Origin: a virus | Strand: one strand, 5' to 3' | Virus record (IMG/VR): IMGVR_UViG_3300009545_000642 | Location: 1 to 38,663 of that record | Length of the DNA: 38,663 nucleotides | Shown: positions 2,213 to 36,597 of the stretch, piece after piece | How positions within the stretch are numbered: the first letter of the stretch is position 1 | Layout of the letters: every line of letters starts with the position of its first letter | Notes under the pieces: model-generated | What the model saw: the letters and a program-made list of their open reading frames with translations, nothing else | Told to the model about the DNA's origin: nothing | Databases searched by the model: none | Translations under genes and position numbers: made by a program

Positions 2213-3115
2213 TCACGCCTCCGCGGGGCGGGGGAGGGCGAAGGTGGTTTCGATGAAAGCCAACAACCGCCGCACCTCCAACGTGGCGAGGGCCAACTCG
2301 CTTTCCACCTGCATATCGTGGCTGTCCGGATCTGCCTGCTCAGTGGTGACGATGTCGAGCGGACGCAGGCGCGTGATGGCCAGGTCGTGCGATAGCACTA
2401 GGCTCAGGCGGCCATCGAACACGAGGCCCACCTGATACGCCTGCTTGCCACCGCGCAGGTGCTCCTTGATCTCGTCCGCGTCCAGCGCCTGCCGGCGGCA
2501 CCGTACAAGGGCGCCGCTGGGCGTGGCGGGGTCACGCAGCTCGCACTCGTCGCCGAGGCCCAGCAGGGCCGGCAGCGTATCGTTGGCCAGCCAGTCGGTG
2601 AGTAACACGCGTGGCGCGTCGGCGGGAGCCAGCGGCACCGCAGGGAAAGAACCAAACGCCTCGCGCAGCGCCGATAGCGTCAGCTCCGCATAGCGCCGGC
2701 TCGGTGTATCGATGACCAGCCAGCCGTGGTTGGGGTCGATCCAGCCGGCAATGCGGCGGGAGGTCACGGGCGCGTGCGGCAGCATCGCCTGCACTACGTC
2801 CTCATGGAGCTGCTTACGCTCCTTGCGGCCGACCCGGCGGCCCTCTTGAGCGGTGATGGCTTGCACCTTCTTCGCTACTGCGTCGCGGACGGATGAAGCC
2901 GGCAGTACGCGCTCGGCCTGCACGAACACGAAGCCGTGGCAACCATTGGCCGCGACCGTGAGGCGGTCATCCAGCAAACCGTACGGCGACCCAAAGCCAT
3001 GCGTGGCGGGCTCCTGCGGGCCGGGTTCACGTACGCGGTGGCGAGCCAGGTCCGCGGCAATGTCGTGGGAGGGCGAGGTGCCGAAACGGAACAGGGAAAG
3101 GTTGCGGGGAAACAT
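2213..3115 (-). CDS. rdgC: recombination-associated protein RdgC
   Basis: 300-aa RdgC homologue. The family forms a ring-shaped DNA-binding dimer that modulates RecA-dependent recombination. The N-terminus MFPRNLSLFRF matches the typical RdgC opening (MxWFKNLxxYR-like), and full-family length, SPYG and the C-terminal LEVRRLL helix agree. The longer open frame upstream is rejected because the ATG at 3115 has GAGGTG 5 nt upstream. It lies in the early operon between a small membrane protein and two unknown small genes. A phage-borne copy could protect replicating phage DNA or modulate host RecA; that role is inference. Confidence 0.9.
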   Translation of the reverse strand: MFPRNLSLFRFGTSPSHDIAADLARHRVREPGPQEPATHGFGSPYGLLDDRLTVAANGCHGFVFVQAERVLPASSVRDAVAKKVQAITAQEGRRVGRKERKQLHEDVVQAMLPHAPVTSRRIAGWIDPNHGWLVIDTPSRRYAELTLSALREAFGSFPAVPLAPADAPRVLLTDWLANDTLPALLGLGDECELRDPATPSGALVRCRRQALDADEIKEHLRGGKQAYQVGLVFDGRLSLVLSHDLAITRLRPLDIVTTEQADPDSHDMQVESELALATLEVRRLLAFIETTFALPRPAEA

Positions 3116-3123
3116 CGGGCACC

Positions 3124-3294
3124 TCAGCGGGGCAGGAAGGGGAGAAGGGTGCAGGCGGCCAGCAGCAGGCCGGCCAGGAAAGCGACGAACAGGTCCGGAT
3201 CGCCATAGGGCCGAGACCGGCCGTCGCCGGGGACGGGGGGGCGCGTACACTGCAGTTGGGGGCCGTGTGCCGGCCGGATGCGCATCGTGTGCAT
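3124..3294 (-). CDS. small membrane protein, 56 aa
   Basis: Short ORF just upstream of rdgC (8-nt gap). The ATG at 3294 has a very good ribosome-binding site (AAGGAG, 8-nt spacer). The N-terminal half is polar and Pro/Arg-rich; the C-terminal part from about residue 37 (DLFVAFLAGLLLAACTLLPF) is one clear transmembrane segment ending in PR. Such a small single-pass protein in the early operon could be a superinfection-exclusion or lysis-timing factor, but no family is recognised. Confidence 0.6.
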   Translation of the reverse strand: MHTMRIRPAHGPQLQCTRPPVPGDGRSRPYGDPDLFVAFLAGLLLAACTLLPFLPR

Positions 3295-3329
3295 GGTGTG
3301 TGCTCCTTCGGTGGTATCAGGCGGTGCGT

Positions 3330-3351
3330 GGGGAGTGCACGAACACTCCCC
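3330..3351. terminator. hairpin between primase and the small membrane gene
   Basis: Perfect 8-bp inverted repeat GGGGAGTG / CACTCCCC with a 6-nt loop, in the 94-nt gap downstream of the primase gene. There is no T-run on either side, so it is more likely an attenuator, RNA processing or mRNA-stabilising hairpin than an intrinsic terminator. Confidence 0.4.
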
Positions 3352-3388
3352 CGGCCCCCGCCGCGGGTGAGCCGGGGTGACCGGCAAA

Positions 3389-6046
3389 TCAGTCGTCCGG
3401 GGACATGCGGAAGATCCAGCAGCGCACGGTGGCCGGTCCGGTCGTGCGAATGGCGCTGCGGACGGCGCGGCTGGATTCGAGGAACTTGTGGCGCTTGCTG
3501 GTCGGCAGGTGTTCGCGCAGCTCCGCCAAGGTCGGCACGTCACGCCAACGCTCGGTCGCCATTTCCAGCCATTCGTGGATGTTGACCGCGATCAGGCTCT
3601 TGTCGGCGCTGTGGTTGAGGTACGGGCGCTCGCCTCGGCCGTTCAGTTCGTGGAAGCGCTCCCAGAAACTGACGACTACCTCATGGTCGGAAGTGATCAC
3701 CTTCTGCCGTTCTTCGGTCATGGTGGCCAGTTGCTGCAGGGTCGCCTCGCGGTAAGGGGCGACGCCCGGCACGACCAGTTCCAGCGCCTCGGCCATGGCC
3801 ATCAGCTGCGCATGATTCTTCGCCAAACGCACGCTCTTTACCTTCGGGTTGTCCAGCAGCTGGCGTTCGTACACGGGCATGCGCTCGGTGAAGCACGCCA
3901 TGACCTTGGCTTCGGCGCGCGCGGCGGCGATAACGAAATAGCTCAGCTCGTCGGCGGTCATCGCATTCAAGAGGTCCGCCTTGCGCTTGCCTTCGTCGGA
4001 GTGGCCCTCGCGGGTCATGTACACATGGCAGATGCGCTGCATCACCGCGTCATCGGCTTTCACAGGACGGTTCTGTTCGATCACGATGGCCGCGCGGAAG
4101 GGCGGTTCGTAGGTGTCGTTGCCCACGCTTTTGACGCCGGTCGTGCGGGTGCTGCGGCCGTTGAATAGCGATTTCAGTTCGTCGAAATCGAACTTGACGG
4201 TTTTGGTGGACGTCTCGCCGCGGTCGCCTTCCATCAACACGACCGGTAGGTTGGCCACCTGCACGAAGGTGCGAGCGCGGCCCGCCGGCGTGGCCTTGGC
4301 CGGGTCGAAGCCTTCGTAGGTCGGACGCCCGAGCAGGCGATTGAGGAACATCACCAGGGAGGTCTTGCCCGAACCGCCTTCACCAACCATCTCGAAGAAC
4401 GGAAAGCTTTCCTGTACGGCACGTACCTGTTCGGCAAACAGCGATGCAAACCAGAAGGTCAGCGCGACCATGCCCTTGGGGCCGTAGACCTCGAACAGCA
4501 GTTTCGGCCACGATTGATTGAAGCGGTTGGCGTCGGTGTGGATGCGGTGATGCACCGAGCTGGTGGTCTTGATGTTCGAGCGCTTATCCAGCTCGAAGTA
4601 ATCCTCGTCGTTGATCTCGATCATGCGGCCGTCCTTGATCGCGACTTCGCCGAACACGTAGGCGCCGTGCTCCTTGGAGTAGCCGATGAAATCAATGGTC
4701 TCCACGTGCTTGAGGCGCGACAGGCGCTCGCCGTAGGTGCGGGTCAGCTGCTCCTTGGTCCCCATCCATGACGCGCCCGACATGATCGACAGCAAGCGCA
4801 CATCGAATTGCGAGGCGGTGGCGACGTGTTCTGGTTTGAAGGCGGCCTTTACCGTCTTCTGCGCGGGCGCGGTGACGCGGAAGAAGTACTGCGATTCCTC
4901 GGTGACCGCGTTGCGCTGGAAGTACAGCGGCACGGGATGGCAGGGGGCGAGCAGATCGATGGCGCCGGCCTGCTGCAACGCCTTGTCGCGGCGCTCCTCC
5001 TCGTCCAGCTCGTCGGCCTTCTCCTCCAACGCCTGCATGGCCTTGTCGTAGCGTGCTTCGTTGAGCGCGTACCAATACAGCTTGTCGCTGAAATCCAGCG
5101 GGAAGCTCTTGTAGCCCTTGCGCTTGTAGATCAGGCGCGCCTTCTCCGCGACGGAGCCGGCGATCACCAGGGCGCCCTCGTGGCGATACTCGTCCAGGTG
5201 CGTGGCGGTCAGCCGGTCGCGCTGGTACGCCTCGTTCCAGTCAAGCTTGCGATCTTCGGAGTGTTGGGGAATAACGGCGGCGCCGGCCATCCAGGCCTCC
5301 TGACGGGCGCGTTCCACCCAGCGCTGGATGTATTCCAGCCCGGCGGCGTCGCCATCGAGCGCCCACACCAGACGCGGTCGCCGGGCGCCTTCGGGGAACA
5401 GCTCCGCCAGCGTGTAGTTGGGAAAATTGTTGGTGGACATCGCCGAGATGGCCGGGATGCCGGCGAGGCACAGCGCGATGGCGTCGAAGATGCCTTCAAC
5501 GATCCATAGTTCCTTGATGTCAGCCAGCTCGATGAGCGTGGCCGGTGGTACCCAGGCGCGACCCCGATAGGACTTGCCCGGCTGAAAGCGGGCTTTCTTC
5601 TTGCCGAAGCGGGACGGCTGATCGATCAGGCGCTCCCAGTACGCACCGCCGGGCAACGCGAAGCGCACGGTGGCGGTGCTGATATTGAGGTCGCGGTCGT
5701 GGAACCATTCCTGCGTGTAGGCGCCCTTGAGCTTCTCGATGGCGAAGCCCCGCGCATGGATCAGGTACGCGTCGGCAGCGGCCAGGGGTGCCTCTTTGGT
5801 GCTGGGATAGCGATCCGACCAGGACTGGAACAGATCCTCGTAGAGGTCTTTGGCATAGCCTTCCCAGCGGCATTTGTTGATGCGTCCGCAGCGCACCACC
5901 CACGGCGCAGGGGCGTGGGCATACAGCTCCTTCTTGCCACATTGTGGGCAGGTGCCCTCCTGTAGCCAGCGGCCGTCGGTGGTCTCTTTGAGGCCGAAAT
6001 CGAGCTGCAGCTGTCGGCGGATGTCGGCGAGCAGGTCGTAGTTCAC
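3389..6046 (-). CDS. phage primase/helicase (zinc finger, TOPRIM, P-loop ATPase)
   Basis: 885-aa replication protein, the largest early gene. An N-terminal zinc finger (C33-x2-C36 ... C53-x5-C59) is followed by a TOPRIM primase core (WIVEGIFDAIAL with E184; WALDGDAAG with D231/D233) and a C-terminal P-loop ATPase (GEGGSGKTS, 555-563), the architecture of phage and satellite primase-helicases that start replication. It takes the place of P2 gpA, so replication may be primase-driven and not P2-type rolling circle (inference). The start is the GTG at 6046: it overlaps the upstream stop (GTGA) and has GGAGG about 7 nt upstream. A start at 6136 would run deep into the preceding gene. Confidence 0.9.
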   Translation of the reverse strand: MNYDLLADIRRQLQLDFGLKETTDGRWLQEGTCPQCGKKELYAHAPAPWVVRCGRINKCRWEGYAKDLYEDLFQSWSDRYPSTKEAPLAAADAYLIHARGFAIEKLKGAYTQEWFHDRDLNISTATVRFALPGGAYWERLIDQPSRFGKKKARFQPGKSYRGRAWVPPATLIELADIKELWIVEGIFDAIALCLAGIPAISAMSTNNFPNYTLAELFPEGARRPRLVWALDGDAAGLEYIQRWVERARQEAWMAGAAVIPQHSEDRKLDWNEAYQRDRLTATHLDEYRHEGALVIAGSVAEKARLIYKRKGYKSFPLDFSDKLYWYALNEARYDKAMQALEEKADELDEEERRDKALQQAGAIDLLAPCHPVPLYFQRNAVTEESQYFFRVTAPAQKTVKAAFKPEHVATASQFDVRLLSIMSGASWMGTKEQLTRTYGERLSRLKHVETIDFIGYSKEHGAYVFGEVAIKDGRMIEINDEDYFELDKRSNIKTTSSVHHRIHTDANRFNQSWPKLLFEVYGPKGMVALTFWFASLFAEQVRAVQESFPFFEMVGEGGSGKTSLVMFLNRLLGRPTYEGFDPAKATPAGRARTFVQVANLPVVLMEGDRGETSTKTVKFDFDELKSLFNGRSTRTTGVKSVGNDTYEPPFRAAIVIEQNRPVKADDAVMQRICHVYMTREGHSDEGKRKADLLNAMTADELSYFVIAAARAEAKVMACFTERMPVYERQLLDNPKVKSVRLAKNHAQLMAMAEALELVVPGVAPYREATLQQLATMTEERQKVITSDHEVVVSFWERFHELNGRGERPYLNHSADKSLIAVNIHEWLEMATERWRDVPTLAELREHLPTSKRHKFLESSRAVRSAIRTTGPATVRCWIFRMSPDD

Positions 6047-6345
6047 GACTGCGCCTCCGCGGTGTTGCCGGCGATGGGATGCCAGAGCATGCCGGCGGGG
6101 CCGCACGCGGCGTCCTGACGGCGCATGACATCGCACGCGATGCCCAGGTACTCAGTCTCGCCGTCAGCAAGGTCGAGCGCGTGTTCCTCACCGCGGCTCG
6201 CGGTCACCGGTGCGCAGTGCGGCGGAAGGGTGCACAGGTGCACGGTATCGGCGAACTGCTGGTGGAACAGGCAGGTGACGCAGTGGATGACGTCCGCGCT
6301 TATACGCGGCGACCGAGGAAGATTCATGAGACAAGCCGTGTCCAT
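6043..6345 (-). CDS. hypothetical early phage protein
   Basis: Up to 100 aa, coupled to the primase by a 4-nt GTGA overlap. Contains several Cys and His residues (IHCVTCLFH and a later CTLPPHC), which could make a small metal-binding site. Two ATG starts are possible (6345 or 6327) and neither has a convincing ribosome-binding site. No family is recognised. Confidence 0.6.
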   Translation of the reverse strand: MDTACLMNLPRSPRISADVIHCVTCLFHQQFADTVHLCTLPPHCAPVTASRGEEHALDLADGETEYLGIACDVMRRQDAACGPAGMLWHPIAGNTAEAQS

Positions 6346-6404
6346 GCCGGCAGCCCGAAGGCTGCCAGTCGTATGATCAAGAGGGAGGGAGGGGGGAGCG
6401 CCGC

Positions 6405-6797
6405 TTAGAAGTCGGCGCGGCGTCCACAGCGCGCGGCGGCGAGGTCGCCGTCCTGCGTGGTGGTGCGATGCTCGTCGGCGAGCGTGAGCAGTTCGCTCGC
6501 GGTGAAGGCGATCAGCCGGCCCGTGCGCGGGCTGGTGATGTACACCACGGCACTCGTGCTGTGGTGGATGTCGACGTAAGCCGGTACGCGGCGCGCCTGA
6601 TGGGCCGCTAAGGCGTGCATGGCATCGTTCGTGGCGGTGCGTTGGCTGATGTCAAAACGAATCATCAGTTCGGCAGCGCAGCGAGCGACGAGCTGCTGTT
6701 CATCCAAATGCTGTGCAGCCTGCTGTTCCATAAAGGCGGATGCCATCCGAAAGCGCGCCTCAGCCGTGTTGTGGTGGTCGGTGTCGATGGTGAGCAC
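6405..6797 (-). CDS. hypothetical early phage protein
   Basis: 130 aa from the GTG at 6797, which has AGGA 6 nt upstream and begins 13 nt after the ogr-like stop; the longer open frame would overlap the ogr-like gene by 100 nt. Predicted to be mainly helical in its first half (MASAFMEQQAAQHLDEQQL) with a short beta-rich part after residue 70 (AYVDIHHSTSAVVYITSP). No function is recognised. It lies between the late activator and the primase and is followed by about 60 nt without a gene. Confidence 0.65.
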   Translation of the reverse strand: MLTIDTDHHNTAEARFRMASAFMEQQAAQHLDEQQLVARCAAELMIRFDISQRTATNDAMHALAAHQARRVPAYVDIHHSTSAVVYITSPRTGRLIAFTASELLTLADEHRTTTQDGDLAAARCGRRADF

Positions 6798-6810
6798 GGG
6801 AATCCTGGGG

Positions 6811-7137
6811 TTAGTGGAGCGCAGGCAGTACGGGTGTGTGATCCGGGGGAGCTGATGGCACCATCGAGGTGGAAGGCACGGTGACTTCGGCGGTGCGTGG
6901 CATGACGATGTCATTGGCGCGCCGTTCCACCATCGGCGGTGACGCGTTGTCCGAAGGAGGTAAGCGCGGGATCAGGGTGCGCACGATGCCTAAATGGCCG
7001 ACGAAGCGGCACAGGCAGTCCTCATTGACGCAGTCGAAGTAAATCTCGCGCACGTGGTCGCTCAGCAGACGGGAGGTGATGGTGCGTACCCGTCCGCCGC
7101 ATTCGGGACAGGGCATGGAATTCCTGTTCGATGCCAT
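6811..7137 (-). CDS. ogr: Ogr/Delta-type late gene activator
   Basis: Zinc-finger transcription activator expected to bind upstream of late promoters and contact the RNA polymerase alpha subunit. The N-terminal part has C10-x2-C13-x22-C36-x4-C41, exactly the spacing of P2 Ogr / P4 Delta, plus the surrounding pattern (CPECGGRV, TSR, Y-x-D-C-x-N). P2 Ogr has 72 aa; this one is 108 aa with an extra Pro-rich tail. The ATG at 7137 has GAGGG 7 nt upstream, overlapping the stop of the preceding gene. Here it is the second gene of the early operon, so late activation is tied directly to release of repression. The probable targets are the two GTTCTG-N12-CAGAAC sites. Confidence 0.88.
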   Translation of the reverse strand: MASNRNSMPCPECGGRVRTITSRLLSDHVREIYFDCVNEDCLCRFVGHLGIVRTLIPRLPPSDNASPPMVERRANDIVMPRTAEVTVPSTSMVPSAPPDHTPVLPALH

Positions 7138-7140
7138 CGT

Positions 7141-7392
7141 TCAACCCTCGTACACCGGCGCTACGCATGCTTCCTCGCGCTGAGCCTCGCGCGACAACAG
7201 ATAGCTGGGCAGGCCGTGCTGGAACACTGCCAGCACGATGGACGCCACGCTGCATTGGTTCTCTCGTGAAAGAGCGACACAGGCAGTGAATTGATCAGGA
7301 AGCAAGCCCACGCTAACCCGCGGCCGCCTTTCCTGGCCGCGAGGCGCATAGGTCGTGGGTTTGGTGCTAGCAAGGGAGTTAGCGATGCGCAT
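7141..7392 (-). CDS. ribbon-helix-helix-like small regulator (Cox-position)
   Basis: 83 aa, first gene of the leftward early operon, divergent from the repressor. After an Arg/Pro-rich start, the segment RVSVGLLPDQFTACVALSRE continuing to SVASIVLAVFQHGL has the beta-helix-helix rhythm of RHH (CopG/Arc-like) DNA-binding proteins. By position it corresponds to P2 Cox, which represses the lysogenic promoter and assists excision; that is inference. The ATG at 7392 has no obvious Shine-Dalgarno. Confidence 0.6.
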   Translation of the reverse strand: MRIANSLASTKPTTYAPRGQERRPRVSVGLLPDQFTACVALSRENQCSVASIVLAVFQHGLPSYLLSREAQREEACVAPVYEG

Positions 7393-7424
7393 GGGTTACG
7401 ATCACGAAGTTGAGCACTTCGATG

Positions 7425-7453
7425 ATGTTATTTCACAACGGGTGAAATCGCAA
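7425..7453 (-). promoter_or_regulatory. early leftward promoter with operator in its spacer
   Basis: On the minus strand, TTGCGA (7448-7453) and TAACAT (7425-7430) are separated by exactly 17 bp, a plausible sigma70 promoter (4/6 and 4/6 matches) starting about 26 nt before the first early gene. The spacer is occupied by operator 1, so bound repressor would block polymerase directly. Confidence 0.6.
7430..7448. promoter_or_regulatory. repressor operator 1
   Basis: 19-bp palindrome ATTTCACAACGGGTGAAAT: 7-bp perfect arms ATTTCAC / GTGAAAT around a 5-bp spacer. It lies inside the early promoter and is repeated 40 bp away as operator 2, so it is very likely bound by the adjacent CI-like repressor. 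Confidence 0.75.
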
Positions 7454-7469
7454 CGGGTTGTTCGGCAAA

Positions 7470-7488
7470 ATTTCATACCAGGTGAAAT
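7470..7488. promoter_or_regulatory. repressor operator 2
   Basis: Second 19-bp site, ATTTCATACCAGGTGAAAT, same architecture as operator 1 with one arm mismatch (CAT for CAC). Centre-to-centre distance to operator 1 is 40 bp, close to four helical turns, which would allow cooperative binding on one face. It ends 14 nt before the repressor start, suggesting autoregulation. Confidence 0.72.
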
Positions 7489-7501
7489 CGGAGAGGCCCG
7501 A

Positions 7502-7879
7502 TTGGAGACCACCCAGATACTTCAGCGGCTAGGCGAGGTCCTAGGGACGCCCAGCAATATGGCGCTTGCCGAGCGCCTGGGAGTGGGTCCCAGCGCCATC
7601 AGCAACTGGATCAAGCGCAACACCCCGCCGGTCCAGATCATGAGCGACATCGCCGAGCAAGAGGGACTCTCGCTGGATTGGCTGCTTTTCGACGTCGGTA
7701 GCGCGCGGCGTGATGCCGTCGTGCCCAAGGCTGCCACCGCGCAGGGCAAGCGCCTGGTCGAATTCATCCTCGCCTGGGAGCAAAGCAAGCCCACCGAAGA
7801 ACTGGTATGGCTGGAACAACAGATGAAGCGCGCCGTTCCAGAATATGCCGAGTGGTTGGCGAGTCATCCGGCGGCCTGA
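7502..7879 (+). CDS. CI-like prophage repressor
   Basis: 125-aa helix-turn-helix repressor of the phage CI family, maintaining lysogeny by binding the two palindromes just upstream. The HTH spans about residues 18-40 (MALAERLGVGPSAISNWIKR), followed by the typical LSLDWLLFD element. The start chosen is TTG 7502 with GGAGAGG upstream, because family members begin a few residues before EILxRL-like sequence; the frame is open back to 7355, but that would translate both operators. No S24 peptidase domain is present, so it should not be cleaved during SOS, like the short P2 C protein. Its 3' end overlaps gene D, convergent, by 16 nt. Confidence 0.85.
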   Translation: METTQILQRLGEVLGTPSNMALAERLGVGPSAISNWIKRNTPPVQIMSDIAEQEGLSLDWLLFDVGSARRDAVVPKAATAQGKRLVEFILAWEQSKPTEELVWLEQQMKRAVPEYAEWLASHPAA

Positions 7880-8925
7880 TCGCCATTGGCGTCACTCTCG
7901 TCGGCCGCCTGGGTTTCACTAGCGATGGCCTTGCTTTCCAGTTCCACAGCCGTGGTATAGCCATCGCTCGGCGTGAAGCTATGCGTTGCCTTCACGATGA
8001 TCCAGTCGATGGCATCGATCTCCGGCTTCCAGCCGCGGGTACGCGTGGGTATTTCCGGATAGAGGTCCGGCCGACCAATCGCGATGTCCAGCGTGAACGT
8101 CGAAGCGCCACGCCGCACGCGCGCCAGTTCCGCCTCGGCGGCACGCTGTGCATCTTCCTGGCTGGCGAAATCTCCGCGTAGAAACTTCACATGTCCAGCG
8201 GTGCCAGCCAGCACCGTGCGACCGCGCCCGGCGCCCACGTCATGCCATCGCGCGCGGATCCCGGTGTAAGCGTCCCGGTCGGCTTCATGAAACCGATGCC
8301 GATCACCATCCGCACGCTGCAAGATCAACTGTTCGAGCAGTTTCCCGCCGGCCGTTTGCGCGGCGCCGACGGGCATAAACAGCAGGTTGCCCGCCTTCAC
8401 CGTCGCCACCGCATCCCACATCTTGCCCAGGCGTCGCAGCAGCGCGACGTCGGATTCCGTCTGCGCCAGGTGCCCCACCGGCAGGCGGTCCAGGCTCGCC
8501 GCCACACGCGGCGTGAGCTGGTGTTCGCCCGCGATGACGCGCACCACGTGCCCTACGGTGGTCTGGTTCCAGCTGCGTTCCTTGCGCGCGCGCAGCTCTC
8601 GCGTCAGCTTGGCGCTGCGCGCCACGATGCTCACGGTGTCGGGCGTGCCGCTATGTTCGATCTCGTCCACGTGATACGTGCCCTGCAGCGACACGCCGAG
8701 CCCTTCAAAGCCCAGCATGACCCGCATTTCCACGCCACGGCGCGGCAGGGCGATCTGCCCCTGGCTGTCGTCCAGATTCAAGCTCACCGTGTCCGCGTGA
8801 TCCTGGCGATGGGACTCCACCGTCAGCTGGATCAGGTGCGGCATGATCCGCGCGGTGCGGTCCTTACCGTCAATGGTGATCTGGCAGGTCGGGCGCAACA
8901 GTGGATTGGTGGGCTGTACGATCAT
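7864..8925 (-). CDS. D: late control/baseplate hub protein D
   Basis: 353 aa, the Phage_GPD family: tail hub protein located between tube and spike in contractile tails, homologous to T4 gp27. Begins with MIVQPTNPLLRPTCQITIDG and shows the family's RELRARKERSWNQTT and LRRLGKMWD regions. Starts by an ATGA overlap with U. It is the last gene of the tail operon; its 3' end runs into the oppositely oriented repressor. Confidence 0.9.
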   Translation of the reverse strand: MIVQPTNPLLRPTCQITIDGKDRTARIMPHLIQLTVESHRQDHADTVSLNLDDSQGQIALPRRGVEMRVMLGFEGLGVSLQGTYHVDEIEHSGTPDTVSIVARSAKLTRELRARKERSWNQTTVGHVVRVIAGEHQLTPRVAASLDRLPVGHLAQTESDVALLRRLGKMWDAVATVKAGNLLFMPVGAAQTAGGKLLEQLILQRADGDRHRFHEADRDAYTGIRARWHDVGAGRGRTVLAGTAGHVKFLRGDFASQEDAQRAAEAELARVRRGASTFTLDIAIGRPDLYPEIPTRTRGWKPEIDAIDWIIVKATHSFTPSDGYTTAVELESKAIASETQAADESDANGDQAAG

Positions 8926-20381: not shown

Positions 20382-20545
20382 GTGATGCCCTTTTCCCCAA
20401 TGTCTGTATTCGCAACCCGAGGCGGACCTTGTAGCTTCGGAGACTGAATTATCATGGCGGTCCATTCGTCGGCCATATAAGTGAAAGCATCAATGAAGTG
20501 CCGATTGATGAAGAGGTTGTCTGGATTTCGATTGCTGGCGAGCAT
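20372..20545 (-). CDS. small antisense ORF between the defence genes
   Basis: 57 aa on the opposite strand from both neighbours: convergent with the AbiJ-like gene (10-nt overlap at the 3' ends) and divergent from the SIR2-like gene. The ATG at 20545 has GGAG about 8 nt upstream, and the peptide (NPDNLFINRHFIDAFTYMAD, then EWTAMIIQSP) has natural protein composition, whereas the competing plus-strand frame is Arg/Lys-rich. Not recognised. It could be a small regulator or inhibitor of the defence pair, or the tail of a lost minus-strand gene. Confidence 0.38.
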   Translation of the reverse strand: MLASNRNPDNLFINRHFIDAFTYMADEWTAMIIQSPKLQGPPRVANTDIGEKGITQV

Positions 20546-20624
20546 GATGAAGCTCCGCCGGAAGCCGCAGGATGTTCTAGGTTTTATCAAAGTTCAATTT
20601 CCAACACACAGTCAGTCATCCAAA

Positions 20625-21797
20625 ATGCCCTCTTCAACTCACCCTGGTTACCGAATCTATCTTCTCGGCGCGGGCTTTTCGCGGTCTGCGGGGCTGCCGG
20701 TGGCAAGCGAGCTTTTCCCTCTAGTTCGTGCAGCCATTGAAGAGAAACACGGTACCGATACGAAGTTCCATCGTGATCTTAGAAACTATCTCAGCTATTG
20801 TGCTGACTGTGGCGTATCGGGTCAGCAAGAGGAGTCTCTAGATCTCGAAGTGTTTATGTCGTACCTCGATATCGAGCATTACCTTGGCCTTAGGGGTGGT
20901 GACACTTGGAGTCGAGAAGGAAACGAATCTCAGCTCATGATTAAGAGAGCTATCGGGGAGGTGATCCATCGCCATACGCCCCCAGGCGATAAGCTTCCGG
21001 ACATCTACTATCGTTTTGCAGAACAGTTGTCGGTAAACGACACCGTGCTTACTCTTAACTATGATCTCGTTTTAGAGCGAGCTCTGGCCCATGTGGGCAA
21101 GGCGTTTCGGCGCTATCCAACTCGATTCAAGTCATTGTCCGCGCATGGAGGCGTTGTCGATTCTGACATCGAGGAACTGGTGCTATTGAAGTTGCACGGA
21201 TCCCTGGACTGGTTCGATGATCGGCAGTACCTTGCTTTGAAGGACTCGGTCAGGAACGTGGCTCCCGGACATCTACCGCATCACGATGTGTTTCGAGATC
21301 CTTCGCGTTTTGAAGTTGCTCCGCTCGTTGATGGCTTGTTGCCTGCGGAAGACGCACTTCGACACATTCATTTCATTAACCGTGTTGATGAATACTACCG
21401 AGATCCGCAAGGGTTGAGCGCGCCATTCATCCTGTCGCCGTCGCACGTCAAGTTTGTATATACGGAGCCACTGATGAGCTTTTGGTACGGATGGGGGCGC
21501 GCCGGCGGGTACAACACTGGCGTATCTGTCATAGGTTTCTCACTGCCGACCCATGACGAGTACATCCGCATTTGTCTGCATCAGATACTTTCCAACTATG
21601 GTTCATGGTGGGACGAGCGCCTTCTTAGTGTGCTCAAGGACTATGTGCGCTTTGTCGACTATAAGCCTACTGATGAGTATAGGCTGGCATACATGGATCG
21701 TTATTGCTTTGCGGACCCTGAGCGCTCACGCTTCTTCTTTGATGGCTTTGGGCTAGAAGCAATCGACTTCCTCTTTCATCAGCCGCGGAATGTCTAG
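20625..21797 (+). CDS. SIR2-like protein, putative NADase effector
   Basis: 390 aa with a SIR2-like (SIR2_2-type) domain: YLLGAGFSRSAGLP (13-25, NAD-binding loop), TLNYD (143-147, N145 the catalytic Asn position), KLHGSLDW (189-196, H191 the catalytic His position) and VIGFSLPTHDEY (302-313). In bacterial defence systems such as Thoeris, DSR and SIR2-HerA, related domains deplete NAD+ on phage sensing. All key residues are kept, so activity is plausible. The frame is open to 20481, but ATG 20625 places the Rossmann motif at the usual distance; there is no clear Shine-Dalgarno. Lower GC than the tail genes. No separate sensor domain is obvious, so the trigger may be the AbiJ-like neighbour or the phage itself. 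Confidence 0.8.
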   Translation: MPSSTHPGYRIYLLGAGFSRSAGLPVASELFPLVRAAIEEKHGTDTKFHRDLRNYLSYCADCGVSGQQEESLDLEVFMSYLDIEHYLGLRGGDTWSREGNESQLMIKRAIGEVIHRHTPPGDKLPDIYYRFAEQLSVNDTVLTLNYDLVLERALAHVGKAFRRYPTRFKSLSAHGGVVDSDIEELVLLKLHGSLDWFDDRQYLALKDSVRNVAPGHLPHHDVFRDPSRFEVAPLVDGLLPAEDALRHIHFINRVDEYYRDPQGLSAPFILSPSHVKFVYTEPLMSFWYGWGRAGGYNTGVSVIGFSLPTHDEYIRICLHQILSNYGSWWDERLLSVLKDYVRFVDYKPTDEYRLAYMDRYCFADPERSRFFFDGFGLEAIDFLFHQPRNV

Positions 21798-30947: not shown

Positions 30948-31406
30948 CTAGCGCTCAGAAAGGCGTTTCTTCAATGTGATCTCTGTTGCCTCTGCGCCGT
31001 ACATAGAATCAGGTGGATAGTCGTTGTTCGCTGCCGCAGGGTACTCGCCGATCAGGGCATTCGGGTCGTCATCCGAATACCTCACCTCCCATCGTCGCCC
31101 CGTAAGCATCTCCTCTCGAACGAATATTGGCATCGGCCATTCCTTGCGGTCCCAGCTAGGCAGCGTTCCTAATTCCACCCACCTACCTGTCTGCAAGAAC
31201 AAATCACCAAAACGCGCGACCAAAATGGTGTCATCCCGGCTCAGAGTTAAAGAGCCGACCTCCGGAAGTTCTTTCCATTCAGCCCAGAAATAACCTAGAA
31301 GGACGCCGCGCCTGGATGCACGAGCGATGAGGCCGATTGCGAAGCCTCCGTCCTGCAACGGGATGCCGAATACAGTTCCCTCAGTGAGTACCTTATTTTT
31401 GGCCAC
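30948..31406 (-). CDS. immunity protein, Imm26-like
   Basis: 152 aa. The opening GTVFGIPLQDGGFAIGLIAR, then GVLLGYFWAEWKELP, resembles the Imm26 family (GxxFxIPLxDGxYxxGxI-like) of polymorphic-toxin immunity proteins. GTG start overlaps the end of the RHS gene by 14 nt, so toxin and antidote are translated together. Expected to neutralise the C-terminal nuclease domain of the RHS protein in the cytoplasm. Position directly after the toxin tip is the usual arrangement. Confidence 0.75.
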   Translation of the reverse strand: MAKNKVLTEGTVFGIPLQDGGFAIGLIARASRRGVLLGYFWAEWKELPEVGSLTLSRDDTILVARFGDLFLQTGRWVELGTLPSWDRKEWPMPIFVREEMLTGRRWEVRYSDDDPNALIGEYPAAANNDYPPDSMYGAEATEITLKKRLSER

Positions 31407-34400
31407 TTGCTGCCCTTATCAAATAGTCGTCCGCTGCTTGTAGGTAGCTGCTGCGATTTGGGTTCCGCAATCCTATCGGTCGTACATAGTTAAGGGGGGC
31501 ATCGTAAGCCTCGTATGCCGATTGCTCCAAACCGCGTTGCTCATTATAAACGTCAGTTCGAGCTAGGACATCAAAAGTGTACTTGCCAAGCACTGGGTCT
31601 CGGGCGTGCTCTGCTTGGCGCCTCGCTAGATCGTTGGTTCTTCCCGTCCGGACTGTCTCTCCGGTGGCGGGGTCGATAAGCCTGTATACCCCTCCGCGAT
31701 TCTGATTCGCCGGATTGACGCAAGGTTTGCCGGCTAGTTCTTCCTGGACGCGGATGTCGGCCTCAGAACGGGGGATCTGATTGGCTTGGTTTGGGCCCAA
31801 TCGGAGACCAAATGCTTCGATCAATCTCTCTCGTTCTAAGGGATCGACGAGATCCAGCTCCTCCGCCTGTTGCAGGCCAAGGGTATCGGTGGCGCCGAGT
31901 GGTTGGCTGCTGACATAGGCGTAGCTTGCAACGCCACCCTGAAGTCCGATCGGATCAGTCTGAGAATACCGGGAGGTTGAGGGCTCGTAGTATCGGTTGA
32001 TGTTGTAAGCAAGCTTGCTCTCTGCGTCATAGTACTGACCAGGAAGGCGCAGATTGAATACGTAGCCGCTTGCCGACGTGGGTTGTTTTTCACCGAACGC
32101 ATTGCCCTGGTAGGGCCACTGCCACTGAACCGATCCTGCGTCATCCGTTATGACTCGCGGCGTGCCTAGACCATCCGCGTATACGTAGCTCACCTTCGCT
32201 GTCGTTCCCAAAGCATCGATAGCTGCGATTGGAACGTCGCCCATCCAGACATAGTCGCGGTTCGTTGTTCCGTACTCACTCAGTAGCTGACTGCCTTCGT
32301 CATAAGCGAAGCGCAGATTGACGGTTTGAGGTGCCGTTGCCGCCTTTGCGACGCGCTCTCCAAGAGCATTGTAGGTATAGCTTGCGACGGTTTGGTTGGC
32401 TTCTTGTACGACAGTCAATCGATTTCGGCTGTTGTAGCCATAGCCAAACGTGTCGCCACTAGCGGAGTTGCCTGTGGTGTTCCCGTTGGCGTCGAATGAG
32501 CGTGCACTATTGCCTATGGTGGTCAGCCAATGCGTTCCGGTCTGATATCCATAAGTGCCGGTGGCGAGGCCGTTGCCGGACTTGCTGAGCCGATCGCCCG
32601 TCTTGTTGTAGGTGTAGGCTTCGATAACGGTGCCTGTGGCATCGTTGATCGAGCCAAGGCGATAGAGCGGATCGTAGTGGTAGGTCTCTGTGGCCGGGTT
32701 AGCGCCAGGCGCATTTCCCAAGGCCGTGATGTTCCCCATCGCATCACGCGCAAAATGGAGGTTCATCGCTGAGCTGGTGACGTCGGACAGTCGGTAGTCG
32801 CTGTCATAGGAGCGAATAACCGTCTGTCCGTTACCTAGCGTGTAGCTCGCGATCGGTCCGAAGGGAAGGTATACGACACTGGTCACTAGATTGACCGTGC
32901 CGCTTGCACCTGGCGGCCGCGCGCTGACCGCGTTGATACGGCCGGCGATATCGCGGCCATACTGGATCATCGCGCCATCGGGCGTATTGATGCTGGCTAG
33001 GCGACCGCCAGGTGTGTACGTGTAATTGACCGTATCAACGGTGGTGCCTTGGGTCTGGCGTTTTTGCACCACATTACCCCGCGCGTCATAGCAGTAAACC
33101 GTGCTGACGGCAGTTTCTACAATGCTGGTTAGACGGCCTATGGGGTTTGATCCTACGCATCCGGTAACGCTGTCGGACTCGTCGTAGCGATAGCTGATGT
33201 TAGATGCGCTATCAGGATATGTGGTTGCGGTAATGCGGTTAAGCGCGTCATAAGTACGTTGGCTTGCTACAGCCTTTGCATCAGTGTCTTGGATGCGATT
33301 GCCGGCTGCGTCGTAGACGTAGCTGGAAGCGCCGGAATCCGGGCTCGTAAGTCCTTTGAGCACTCCCAGGCCATCATACGCGTAAGACGTCACTAGGCTG
33401 TTCGGATCAGTGACCTTTAGGATTCGATCAAGACTGTCGTACGAAAATGATGTTGCGCTGTTCTTGGTTGCTGTGTCGGTGCCATTGTAGTTGCGCGTCA
33501 CGCTGGCAATGCGATTAAGTGCGTCGTAAGTCGTGTGCGTGATGATGCTAAGGCGGTCCTTGGCATCGGTCAGGTTGCCATTCAGATCATAGGTGAAGAT
33601 GATGGCTCGGCTCTGCGCATCGAGCTCCTGCGCCAACTGACCAAGAGCATTGAATTTGCGTGTCAGCGTGCGGATTGGCGTGCTGGACCCATTCGCATAG
33701 ATGTTCTCGGCCGTTCGATTGTCCGCCGCGTCAAGCGTGTACTGGATATAGTTGCCAAGAGCATCGGTGATCTTGACCAGCCTGTGCGCGTCGTCGTAGC
33801 CGTACGACGTTACTACGCCATCCGGATCGGTTACGGATGTGACGGAACCGACCTTGTCGTAGCCGTAACTTGTCTTTGCGCCTCCCACTGTCTGCGTATC
33901 GATCCAGCCACGTGACGTGTACGTAAGGTCATTTGCGTTGCCATTGGCATCTATGATCCGCGTTGGGCGTCCCGCGCCGTCATATGAGGCAATGGTGAGG
34001 GCGTGGCCGAGCGCATCGATAATCTGATGAATGTCGCCGGTTTGGTAGCAGGCTGCTCCGGGAGTGCCACAGTTCTGCGCACTGCTGGATTGATAATAGG
34101 TGTAGTTCGTTATGTTGCCGCGAGGATCAGTTTCGCTGAGCAGCAGTCCTACCGACGTGCAGCCATTGCTCCCGGTTGTGTCGCAGTAGCGATATGTTTG
34201 TTGGCGGACGCCTACGGGTGCGGAAGCAGCGCTACCGCAGACGTAACCTGTTGAACCCGAGACCGCTGGGTCAGCTTCGCAAGACGCGGTCACTTGTCCG
34301 CGGTTGTTGTAAGCGAAACTTTGATAGGCGACTAGCGCTCCAGTCGAGTCCAGTGTGCTGCGCGTCAAGGGGTTGCGAAGAACGGCGTCCCACGTGGTGT

Positions 34401-35967
34401 TGGTCGTGCGCTGGCTAGCGGTTCCCTTCGCGTCGATACGCTGCAGTTCTAAGCCAGATACGCTGTAATTGGTCGACGTGACGTTGCTATTGAGGTCGGT
34501 AAGCGTCGCTGGCCAGCCATTGGTGTCGTAGCTGATAGATTTCCACGGCATTGTGCAGCCCGTACCGCACGAAGTGGAAATGCCCGCAATCTTGTTTTCG
34601 CCCAGATAGTTCTGGAACGTTAGTGTTGACGATGTCCCTAGGGGTGTTTTGATCGTTGCAGGGATCGCGCCATTGATCGTAGAACCCCCGTAAGTAATGG
34701 TGCTGGCAGCGGCACCACCAGCAAAGCTCGATGAGATAGCGCGACCGGAGGTGTCATATCCGGTGTTTTCATAGCGCACATTCTTTTCATCGATGACGCC
34801 GGTTAAGGCATTCGGGAAATTAGTGTTCGACGTTAGGTTGGCTTCGTTATAGACAAACTGCCGGACGCTATTGTCTGGAAACGTCGCAGTGGAGAGATTG
34901 CCGATCGCATCGTAGGTGTAACCTAGGGAGCCGCCTTCGGGGAGATTGACTGTGTTGATGCGGGCACTGCTGTCGTATACGAAGTTTAGCGACCGTCCAT
35001 GAGGGTCTGTGACGGTAAGGAGCAAACCTGGCTTGGGCGCAGTCGATGCAGGCGTACTGACTGTGCTGTAGGTCAGTGTCGTGGTCTGACCATCACGGTC
35101 AGTGATCGAAAGGAGTTGGCCGCTAGGTGAGTATTGTTCAAACTCATGGCCGTAAGCCATGAAGACGGTGTACCCCGTGGGATGGCCCCCCGCGTCGTCC
35201 TGTTCAACGATGGTATCAATGACCCCAGTGTCTGCCGTCCAGGCACCACTCACCTTCTGAAATTGCTCCCGAGTTCCATCAGGGCGATAGAGCACTAGCC
35301 AGTTACCGCCGCCCGATGCGGTGGATTGGAGTGGTTCCAGAGACCGATCAAACGAATGGCGCCACTGGACGCCAACGTTAGTTTGCTTGATCGCAATGTG
35401 GCTATTGTAAAAGCGCCGGAATGTTAGCCACGCAGAGCCGCTGTAATCGGTGTCTTGCTGAAACTTGTTCCCCGTGGACGTATTGATGGGGTCAAGCTGC
35501 TCAGCGCTGGGGCATGTGTTTACGATGTGCGTCTTAGATTCATGCTTCGGCGACCCATTGCTTCCCCAGCAACCTGCTCCACCCAGGTTCTTGAAATCGT
35601 CATACATGTGCGCGGTAGCTTCGACGTAGAACGAGTTCGAGCCATCCGTGTAACTGACGACGGCGCCAATGCCCTCCAACGTTCCGGAGTTGGCCGAGCG
35701 ATAGTTGATGGTGACGTTGCAGTTCGTAGACGTTGGTGAACACGCCGCAAGCATCCTGCCTTGGAGATATGCGGCGGCCTCACCTTCGCTCTCGAAGGTT
35801 TCGAGGTCACCGAAGTAGTTGATCTTGTATGGGGCGCCGTAATAGGAGCCAGCATGCGCCTCCATCGGGAGCGCTAGTACCGCCATCTGAGCCATGGCGG
35901 TGAATGCCAAGAGTCGTAACGAGGAGCGCCGGAAGCCGCGTCCCGCCAAAGCACCTATCCGTGACAT
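31393..35967 (-). CDS. RHS-repeat polymorphic toxin with GIY-YIG-like nuclease tip
   Basis: 1524 aa. Starts at ATG 35967 (CGGAG upstream); Sec-type signal peptide ending AHA-GSY near residue 40. After a unique N-terminal domain and a DUF6531-like entry (PINTSTGNKFQQDTDYSGSA), dozens of YD/RHS repeats (YxxxGxxxxxxD) build the cage. The core ends with RYYEPSTSRYSQTDPIGLQG and DTLGL (about 1365). The variable tip (1425-1524) reads GGVYRL ... RTGRTNDLARRQAEH ... RGLEQ, a GIY-YIG (Tox-URI-like) pattern with catalytic Arg and metal-ligand Glu. Lower GC than phage genes. Lies between portal and the presumed cos, so it is phage cargo; no T6SS or VgrG gene is near. Confidence 0.85.
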   Translation of the reverse strand: MSRIGALAGRGFRRSSLRLLAFTAMAQMAVLALPMEAHAGSYYGAPYKINYFGDLETFESEGEAAAYLQGRMLAACSPTSTNCNVTINYRSANSGTLEGIGAVVSYTDGSNSFYVEATAHMYDDFKNLGGAGCWGSNGSPKHESKTHIVNTCPSAEQLDPINTSTGNKFQQDTDYSGSAWLTFRRFYNSHIAIKQTNVGVQWRHSFDRSLEPLQSTASGGGNWLVLYRPDGTREQFQKVSGAWTADTGVIDTIVEQDDAGGHPTGYTVFMAYGHEFEQYSPSGQLLSITDRDGQTTTLTYSTVSTPASTAPKPGLLLTVTDPHGRSLNFVYDSSARINTVNLPEGGSLGYTYDAIGNLSTATFPDNSVRQFVYNEANLTSNTNFPNALTGVIDEKNVRYENTGYDTSGRAISSSFAGGAAASTITYGGSTINGAIPATIKTPLGTSSTLTFQNYLGENKIAGISTSCGTGCTMPWKSISYDTNGWPATLTDLNSNVTSTNYSVSGLELQRIDAKGTASQRTTNTTWDAVLRNPLTRSTLDSTGALVAYQSFAYNNRGQVTASCEADPAVSGSTGYVCGSAASAPVGVRQQTYRYCDTTGSNGCTSVGLLLSETDPRGNITNYTYYQSSSAQNCGTPGAACYQTGDIHQIIDALGHALTIASYDGAGRPTRIIDANGNANDLTYTSRGWIDTQTVGGAKTSYGYDKVGSVTSVTDPDGVVTSYGYDDAHRLVKITDALGNYIQYTLDAADNRTAENIYANGSSTPIRTLTRKFNALGQLAQELDAQSRAIIFTYDLNGNLTDAKDRLSIITHTTYDALNRIASVTRNYNGTDTATKNSATSFSYDSLDRILKVTDPNSLVTSYAYDGLGVLKGLTSPDSGASSYVYDAAGNRIQDTDAKAVASQRTYDALNRITATTYPDSASNISYRYDESDSVTGCVGSNPIGRLTSIVETAVSTVYCYDARGNVVQKRQTQGTTVDTVNYTYTPGGRLASINTPDGAMIQYGRDIAGRINAVSARPPGASGTVNLVTSVVYLPFGPIASYTLGNGQTVIRSYDSDYRLSDVTSSAMNLHFARDAMGNITALGNAPGANPATETYHYDPLYRLGSINDATGTVIEAYTYNKTGDRLSKSGNGLATGTYGYQTGTHWLTTIGNSARSFDANGNTTGNSASGDTFGYGYNSRNRLTVVQEANQTVASYTYNALGERVAKAATAPQTVNLRFAYDEGSQLLSEYGTTNRDYVWMGDVPIAAIDALGTTAKVSYVYADGLGTPRVITDDAGSVQWQWPYQGNAFGEKQPTSASGYVFNLRLPGQYYDAESKLAYNINRYYEPSTSRYSQTDPIGLQGGVASYAYVSSQPLGATDTLGLQQAEELDLVDPLERERLIEAFGLRLGPNQANQIPRSEADIRVQEELAGKPCVNPANQNRGGVYRLIDPATGETVRTGRTNDLARRQAEHARDPVLGKYTFDVLARTDVYNEQRGLEQSAYEAYDAPLNYVRPIGLRNPNRSSYLQAADDYLIRAASGQK

Positions 35968-36597
35968 GCTTTTCTCCGAGTTATAAAAAAGGGCCAGCAG
36001 CCGCAGATGGCTTCCGACCCTTCGTTGACTTGAGTTTTTTCCGACGGTTACGCCGTCGCATACAGCGCTCTTGATGCGCATGGTTCCATCCGTGGATTGT
36101 CGCCATTCAAGTAGCGAGCTCTATCGATGATATACGCGTGCAATGTCTCTACGGCTACAGCAGAGGAGGCCAATTTTTCTCGATCTACTGTAGGCGTAGG
36201 ACTACAGCAAGAATTTGCGCGAGTTATGGCGTAGCTCAATGGCTATTTTCAGATAATGGTCGCAAATATTTGCGGGCTCGCCTGTCTATCGCGGACGAGG
36301 TCACGCCGTGATCATGGAGCGCCATGCATCAGCGTGGATGGTTTCGGCTGTACCAGACATATTCGACGGCGATGTGTCGGTCGTGGCACCTCGGGGGTGA
36401 TCAAAAAGTAGCCAGTTCTGCAGCGTTTCAGAGCTGGCGCGCGCGGTCGTCCCCCCTCCTCGCCTGCGCGCTTCGCCCCCCACTTTTAGTGCAGTTGATG
36501 CGATGGTGCCGCGCCTTAGCTTATGGGGCGCTTCGGCCGATTTTAAGGGCGTGCTACGTGATGCAGATTGATGCGCGCCAGGGCTGACCGATGGCCT
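35968..36597. other. intergenic region upstream of the RHS gene
   Basis: About 630 nt without a convincing gene. It should hold the RHS promoter (not resolved), an inverted repeat CTGTAG-N8-CTACAG (36188-36207), a small hairpin GACGG-CGTAA-CCGTC near 36040-36055 and the cos-like sequence at 36446-36464. Open frames of 60-90 codons here have unnatural composition and no ribosome-binding sites. Confidence 0.5.
36446..36464 (-). other. candidate cos packaging site
   Basis: Minus-strand GGCGAGGAGGGGGGACGAC. From memory, the P2/P4 cohesive end is GGCGAGGCGGGGAAAGCAC; 14 of 19 positions agree, including the first seven. The location after Q and the cargo, in a non-coding GC-rich stretch, is where a P2-type genome is expected to have cos. 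If correct, virion DNA ends here and the RHS pair is packaged next to Q. Confidence 0.5.

Follow-up and report, generated by a model that had tools for sequence, protein, structure and literature searches.

We propose that a CI-type repressor gene and the DNA in front of it form the lysis-lysogeny switch of a P2-like temperate phage, in which a 125-aa repressor would act on two operators, here named O1 and O2, so that the leftward early promoter is blocked and the repressor limits its own synthesis. Based on the evidence presented below we give this reading a probability of about 0.85. The arrangement is an ordinary one, of the textbook kind of repressor/operator switch.

The window, that is, the whole stretch of DNA analyzed, comprises the 38,663 bases of a virus record and, judged by its genes, is a P2-like temperate phage (Peduoviridae). 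Hallmarks of the family that were detected by Pfam are an Ogr/Delta activator, the gpD baseplate hub (PF05954, E 1.5e-12), a gpP-type terminase (Terminase_5, E 3.9e-21) and the portal protein (Phage_portal, E 1.8e-13). The window's primase has 45% identity to that of Dobby and 42% to that of Smp131, over at least 95% of its length. An integrase-type protein scored under the Pfam cut-off and was matched to phrog_1 (E 1.1e-22), and an RdgC-type recombination protein (2213-3250, leftward strand; PF04381, E 7.7e-78) is encoded between the integrase and the primase. The leftward early genes are separated from gpD by a single rightward gene, which encodes the CI-type repressor. An Rfam search over 6300-8900 gave no match that reached the gathering threshold.

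Two other ORFs of the window are recorded here as separate observations. A 438-aa ORF (20481-21797, rightward strand) that has a SIR2-like domain (PF13289, E 1e-6) and is flanked by long leftward ORFs is possibly a phage-carried defence gene. Close to the end of the record there is a 1562-aa RHS-repeat protein with DUF6531 (31393-36081, leftward strand), which we interpret as cargo or flanking host DNA.

The repressor and its relatives

The repressor gene (7502-7879, rightward strand) encodes a helix-turn-helix protein of 125 aa when read from a TTG start. Residues 6-67 matched Phage_CI_repr (PF07022) with an E-value of 3.3e-13 and a score of 50.2 bits, against a curated cut-off of 22, and a search of phage protein families identified the phrog_4 repressor family (E 3.2e-10). 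Among solved structures there was a profile match over positions 5-101 to the phage CI chain 2fjr_A (E 0.0058), which we take to be the CI protein of phage 186 and which has 189 residues, versus the 125 aa of the window's protein. This chain was followed by a Cro protein (E 0.078) and an uncharacterized protein (E 0.084). The top E-value in the same search (1.1e-4) belonged to a SUMO-2 chain in which no individual stretch passed, and that match was judged to be due to chance. An AlphaFold2 model built from a four-sequence alignment (mean pLDDT 67, pTM 0.43) was uninformative, as was a Foldseek search of the model against the PDB, where the best match had an E-value of only 4.4.

The S24 peptidase domain was absent among the 11 Pfam families reported for the repressor at E 0.1. 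This differs from the situation in the Burkholderia phage KS14, whose repressor also matches PF07022 (E 3.1e-14) but is a 235-aa protein with an ATG start and an S24 peptidase domain (E 2.6e-15). Given how short the window's repressor is, and that no S24 domain was detectable in it, direct RecA-stimulated cleavage of this protein is unlikely.

When viral contigs were scanned with the repressor, five loci (L001-L005) were identified. L001 shows no difference from the window over 980 bases and, for this reason, was left out of the variability counts, while L002, L003, and L004 have 89-91% protein identity to the repressor. As L002 and L004 are 98.6% alike, the window and its relatives represent three lineages. 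An alignment-based scan recovered the same four close relatives and none further. The fifth locus, L005, has 29% identity to the repressor; by eye, a single ORF there (2890-3834) seemingly contains two tandem CI-type helix-turn-helix repeats. A DNA search of phages with positions 6800-8000 gave no match. By tblastn, the repressor matched one phage record at E 1e-5 and 70 at E 1, and none of the 40 of these 70 records that were listed spanned 80% of the query. Six plasmid records were found at E 0.01. The sole genome-contig locus, L006, from a Lachnospiraceae MAG, was matched over 17 residues and judged to be a chance match.

The palindrome pair and the leftward early promoter

The original prediction that two 19-bp palindromes precede the repressor gene was confirmed for the coordinates of both, and O1 and O2 are 40 bp apart, start to start. 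O1 (7430-7448, ATTTCACaacggGTGAAAT) has the form ATTTCAC-N5-GTGAAAT, with all seven arm pairs matched, and O2 (7470-7488, ATTTCATaccagGTGAAAT), located immediately upstream of the repressor ribosome site, has the form ATTTCAT-N5-GTGAAAT, with six of seven arm pairs matched. The window has no copy of ATTTCA-N7-TGAAAT besides these two, which are also its sole case of a pair of palindromes with the same arm and the same gap that are 12-200 bp apart. Such a pair was present in only one of 200 first-order Markov sequences, and the O1/O2 pair is more than chance would give.

Comparison of the window with L002, L003, and L004 revealed that the arms of the two palindromes do not vary (0/14 positions in O1 and 0/14 in O2), whereas their centers do, at four of five positions in O1 and three of five in O2, or 7/10 together. 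Over 7430-7501 as a whole, none of the 28 arm positions is variable versus 19 of the 44 other positions (P about 1e-5 for four distinct sequences, which represent three lineages only and whose sites are partly dependent). We regard the combination of invariant arms with variable centers as a phylogenetic footprint of symmetric DNA recognition. The palindrome pair, the repressor and the Arc-like gene that faces it recur together in all four related contigs, one of which is identical to the window here. The motif of the pair matched seven contigs, namely the four relatives along with L009, L010, and L012, in whose ORF lists no repressor was seen by eye; the motif alone is, therefore, no proof of a switch. 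From these patterns we infer that the CI-type repressor, translated from TTG 7502, binds both O1 and O2, probably as a dimer.

O1 coincides with a predicted early (lytic) promoter (7425-7453) on the leftward strand. This promoter would consist of TTGCGA (7453-7448), a 17-bp spacer, TTTCACCCGTTGTGAAA (7447-7431), and TAACAT (7430-7425), with its start expected near 7418. That O1 fills the spacer had been predicted, and it does so precisely, as the 17-bp core of the palindrome is the exact spacer between the -35 and -10 hexamers, while the full 19-bp palindrome overlaps each hexamer by one base. All four relatives, including the one identical to the window, retain this layout. L002, L003, and L004 have TTGATA or TTGAAA as one hexamer and TAGCAT as the other, invariably with 17 bp between them, and these are nearer to consensus than the hexamers of the window, which match it at four of six positions each (8/12 in total). 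Pairs of hexamers with 4/6 matches each and a 17-bp spacer are found 26 times across both strands of the window, and a stricter consensus scan (9/12) of 6600-8600 detected no promoter at all, the early promoter included. With an approximate sigma-70 weight matrix, which was used to score the window, L002, and L003 (L004 and L001 being left out), the early promoter ranked 5th of 386,320 site/spacer combinations in the window, and nothing in the window outscored the L002 or L003 version of it. Repressor bound at O1 would occupy the promoter spacer and is thereby expected to keep RNA polymerase off the DNA, in which case the Arc-like gene, the Ogr-like gene and the replication genes would be silent.

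The repressor start codon

The repressor had been predicted to start at the TTG at 7502, one of the rarer start codons, and not at an ATG further upstream, and we consider the TTG start likely, based on the boundary of the CI domain, the N-termini of relatives and the fast-changing DNA outside of the arms in 7430-7501. The TTG (7502-7504) is in frame with an ORF that is open from a GTG at 7355, and it is retained in all five sequences. It is preceded, at a distance of 5 nt, by the ribosome-binding sequence GGAGAGG (7490-7496), which is GGAGTGG in L003 and a weak site, GGCGTGG, in both L002 and L004. In the TTG form the CI domain starts at residue 6, whereas in the form beginning at ATG 7385 it starts at residue 45 and has a slightly lower score. 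In a BLASTP comparison of the ATG 7385 form with KS14 gp5, the alignment begins at residue 3 on the gp5 side and, on the side of the window's protein, three residues before the residue encoded by the TTG.

The expectation that related repressors lack the N-terminal extension was borne out for 13 KS14-type proteins (12 loci and the phage FLC10), all of which have an ATG start that makes them only ~5 residues longer at the N-terminus than the TTG form, with 5 to 37 open codons upstream of the ATG in the 12 loci. A point against the TTG start is one more distant relative, from a Vibrio phage, which is annotated with ~13 N-terminal residues more than the TTG form has.

A start at ATG 7385 or ATG 7391, which would produce a protein of 164 or 162 aa and place the operators within the gene, is in our estimation very improbable. 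Such a start is consistent with the presence of a good ribosome site, AAGGGAG, 6 nt before ATG 7385 (an in-frame codon that the window shares with L001 and L003), with the retention of ATG 7391 in all five sequences, and with a frame that is open throughout and has no frameshift among the relatives. The extension also has a dN of 0.17 versus a dS of 0.24 (window versus L002, 7355-7501), although the operators by themselves constrain this stretch, which leaves the comparison uninformative. However, ATG 7385 is ACG in L002 and L004, and a gene that begins there would run over the beginning of the gene that faces it on the opposite strand. The extension has no Pfam family above cut-off (there was one match below it), retrieved no repressor from the phage collection and is missing from the 13 KS14-type repressors; a match of the extension to a phage RNA polymerase subunit gene (E 0.05) was taken as chance. 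Furthermore, 7430-7501 outside of the arms varies more than the repressor gene does, both at codon positions 1 and 2 (10/28 variable versus 24/250 in the gene, P 0.0006) and at codon position 3 (9/16 versus 36/125, P 0.04). The choice of start has a practical side, in that a gene caller that prefers ATG could add ~39 false residues to the repressor and bury both operators inside a gene.

Promoter orientation, the Arc-like gene and comparison with other phages

A promoter for the repressor itself can be proposed only tentatively. The candidate (7442-7471, rightward strand; GTGAAA, 18 bp, CAAAAT), which sits back to back with the early promoter, has the top rightward weight-matrix score within 7330-7505 in the window, L002, and L003, and an unremarkable rank, 83rd, in the window as a whole. 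Its start is expected near 7478, inside O2, and repressor at O2 may sit on the point where its own message begins and in this way limit its own synthesis. The lytic and lysogenic promoters of P2-like phages, as described in PMC7498355, are face to face and 40-60 bp apart, unlike the back-to-back layout that is weakly predicted here, and promoter orientation is the one feature in which this phage may differ from other P2-like phages.

Should the promoters of this phage be face to face as well, the repressor message would start left of 7418 and cross the early promoter and both operators, a layout that is compatible with repression at O1. The description of other P2-like phages favors such an arrangement, as does the striking conservation of 7393-7423, where two of 31 positions are variable. 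Nevertheless, none of the best six rightward candidates in 7330-7505 of each of the window, L002, and L003 starts left of 7401, and the top candidate in all three sequences, by the approximate matrix, is the back-to-back one, so that we consider a face-to-face layout possible but rather unlikely. An alternative of a different type is that the protein which binds O1 and O2 is not the CI-type repressor but its Arc-like opponent or a regulator of the host. Position alone is silent on which protein binds, as a single intergenic region serves both regulators, and the same four contigs all contain the Arc-like gene (7141-7392, leftward strand), with 87-100% identity. However, repeated sites with two-fold symmetry next to a repressor gene are a common target of helix-turn-helix repressor dimers, and a distinct conserved palindrome, at 7405-7421, remains for the second regulator. 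We thus view binding by another protein as improbable and retain the CI-type repressor as the protein expected to bind O1 and O2.

The Arc-like protein, of 83 aa, is the product of the first leftward gene and was assigned to phrog_3431 (E 8e-7), the same family as KS14 gp4 and FLC10 gp35; neither Pfam nor a search of phages gave a match at E 0.1. We believe that it is probably the opposing regulator. The second leftward gene (6811-7137) encodes an Ogr/Delta-like zinc-finger protein of the late-gene activator family (PF04606, E 2e-13). The palindrome at 7405-7421, CGAAGT-N5-ACTTCG, is different from O1 and O2, is located at the expected early start site, is invariant in alignments of the four distinct sequences and does not recur in exact form elsewhere in the window. 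The Arc-like protein may bind there. The exact 17-mer matched eight contigs, the four relatives and L025-L028, the latter judged by eye to be unrelated DNA.

The closest parallels in gene order are in the Burkholderia phages KS14 and FLC10 (Peduoviridae, Kisquattuordecimvirus), in which, as in the window, a CI-type repressor gene and a phrog_3431 Arc-like gene point away from each other and a palindrome lies in the intergenic region. The intergenic palindrome of KS14, CTTAGTAACACTAAG, is different from that of the window, and the KS14-type group has another palindrome at the same intergenic place. As the first early gene of the window is Arc-like and belongs to the family encoded opposite the CI-type repressor in KS14 and FLC10, the region fits a two-repressor switch. 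Dobby and Smp131, the Peduoviridae with related primases, also have a regulator gene near the early operon, as in the window. That of Dobby, however, is an XRE protein for which the aligned identity is only 23%, and the first early genes that were examined fall into families other than the Arc-like one, phrog_925 in Dobby and phrog_33491 in Smp131.

An operator in a promoter spacer is textbook for phage repressors, as in lambda. The lambda OR/PR region resembles our reading in that an operator occupies the promoter spacer, the promoters are divergent and the repressor is autoregulated, although lambda has three operators versus the two here and, set against that system, the window's repressor has no detectable S24 domain. 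The pattern of promoter plus palindrome was found in 10 contigs, comprising the four relatives, five matches inside long ORFs, and L033, an unrelated phage contig (AT-rich by eye) in which TTGACA, a 17-bp spacer, TTTCAGAAATAATGAAA, and TAAAAT lie between divergent helix-turn-helix genes. Although these genes are of other families (HTH_3/HTH_19, the second gene being under the Pfam cut-off), L033 is a parallel case of the same design with a similar palindrome. We also observed that, within 4701-4900 of L033, the promoter with its palindromic spacer is flanked by two TTCAG-N5-CTGAA palindromes.

A more novel reading, which goes beyond our proposal, is a P2-like switch of lambda-like design, with back-to-back overlapping promoters, a short non-cleavable repressor, and an Arc-like opponent that acts via its own palindrome at 7405-7421. 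We put this forward as a speculative combination, which we consider possible but rather unlikely. If it is true, induction would need a trigger other than RecA, as the repressor has no cleavable domain. With O1 and O2, a group of environmental P2-like phages gains a clean operator pair that lends itself to testing.
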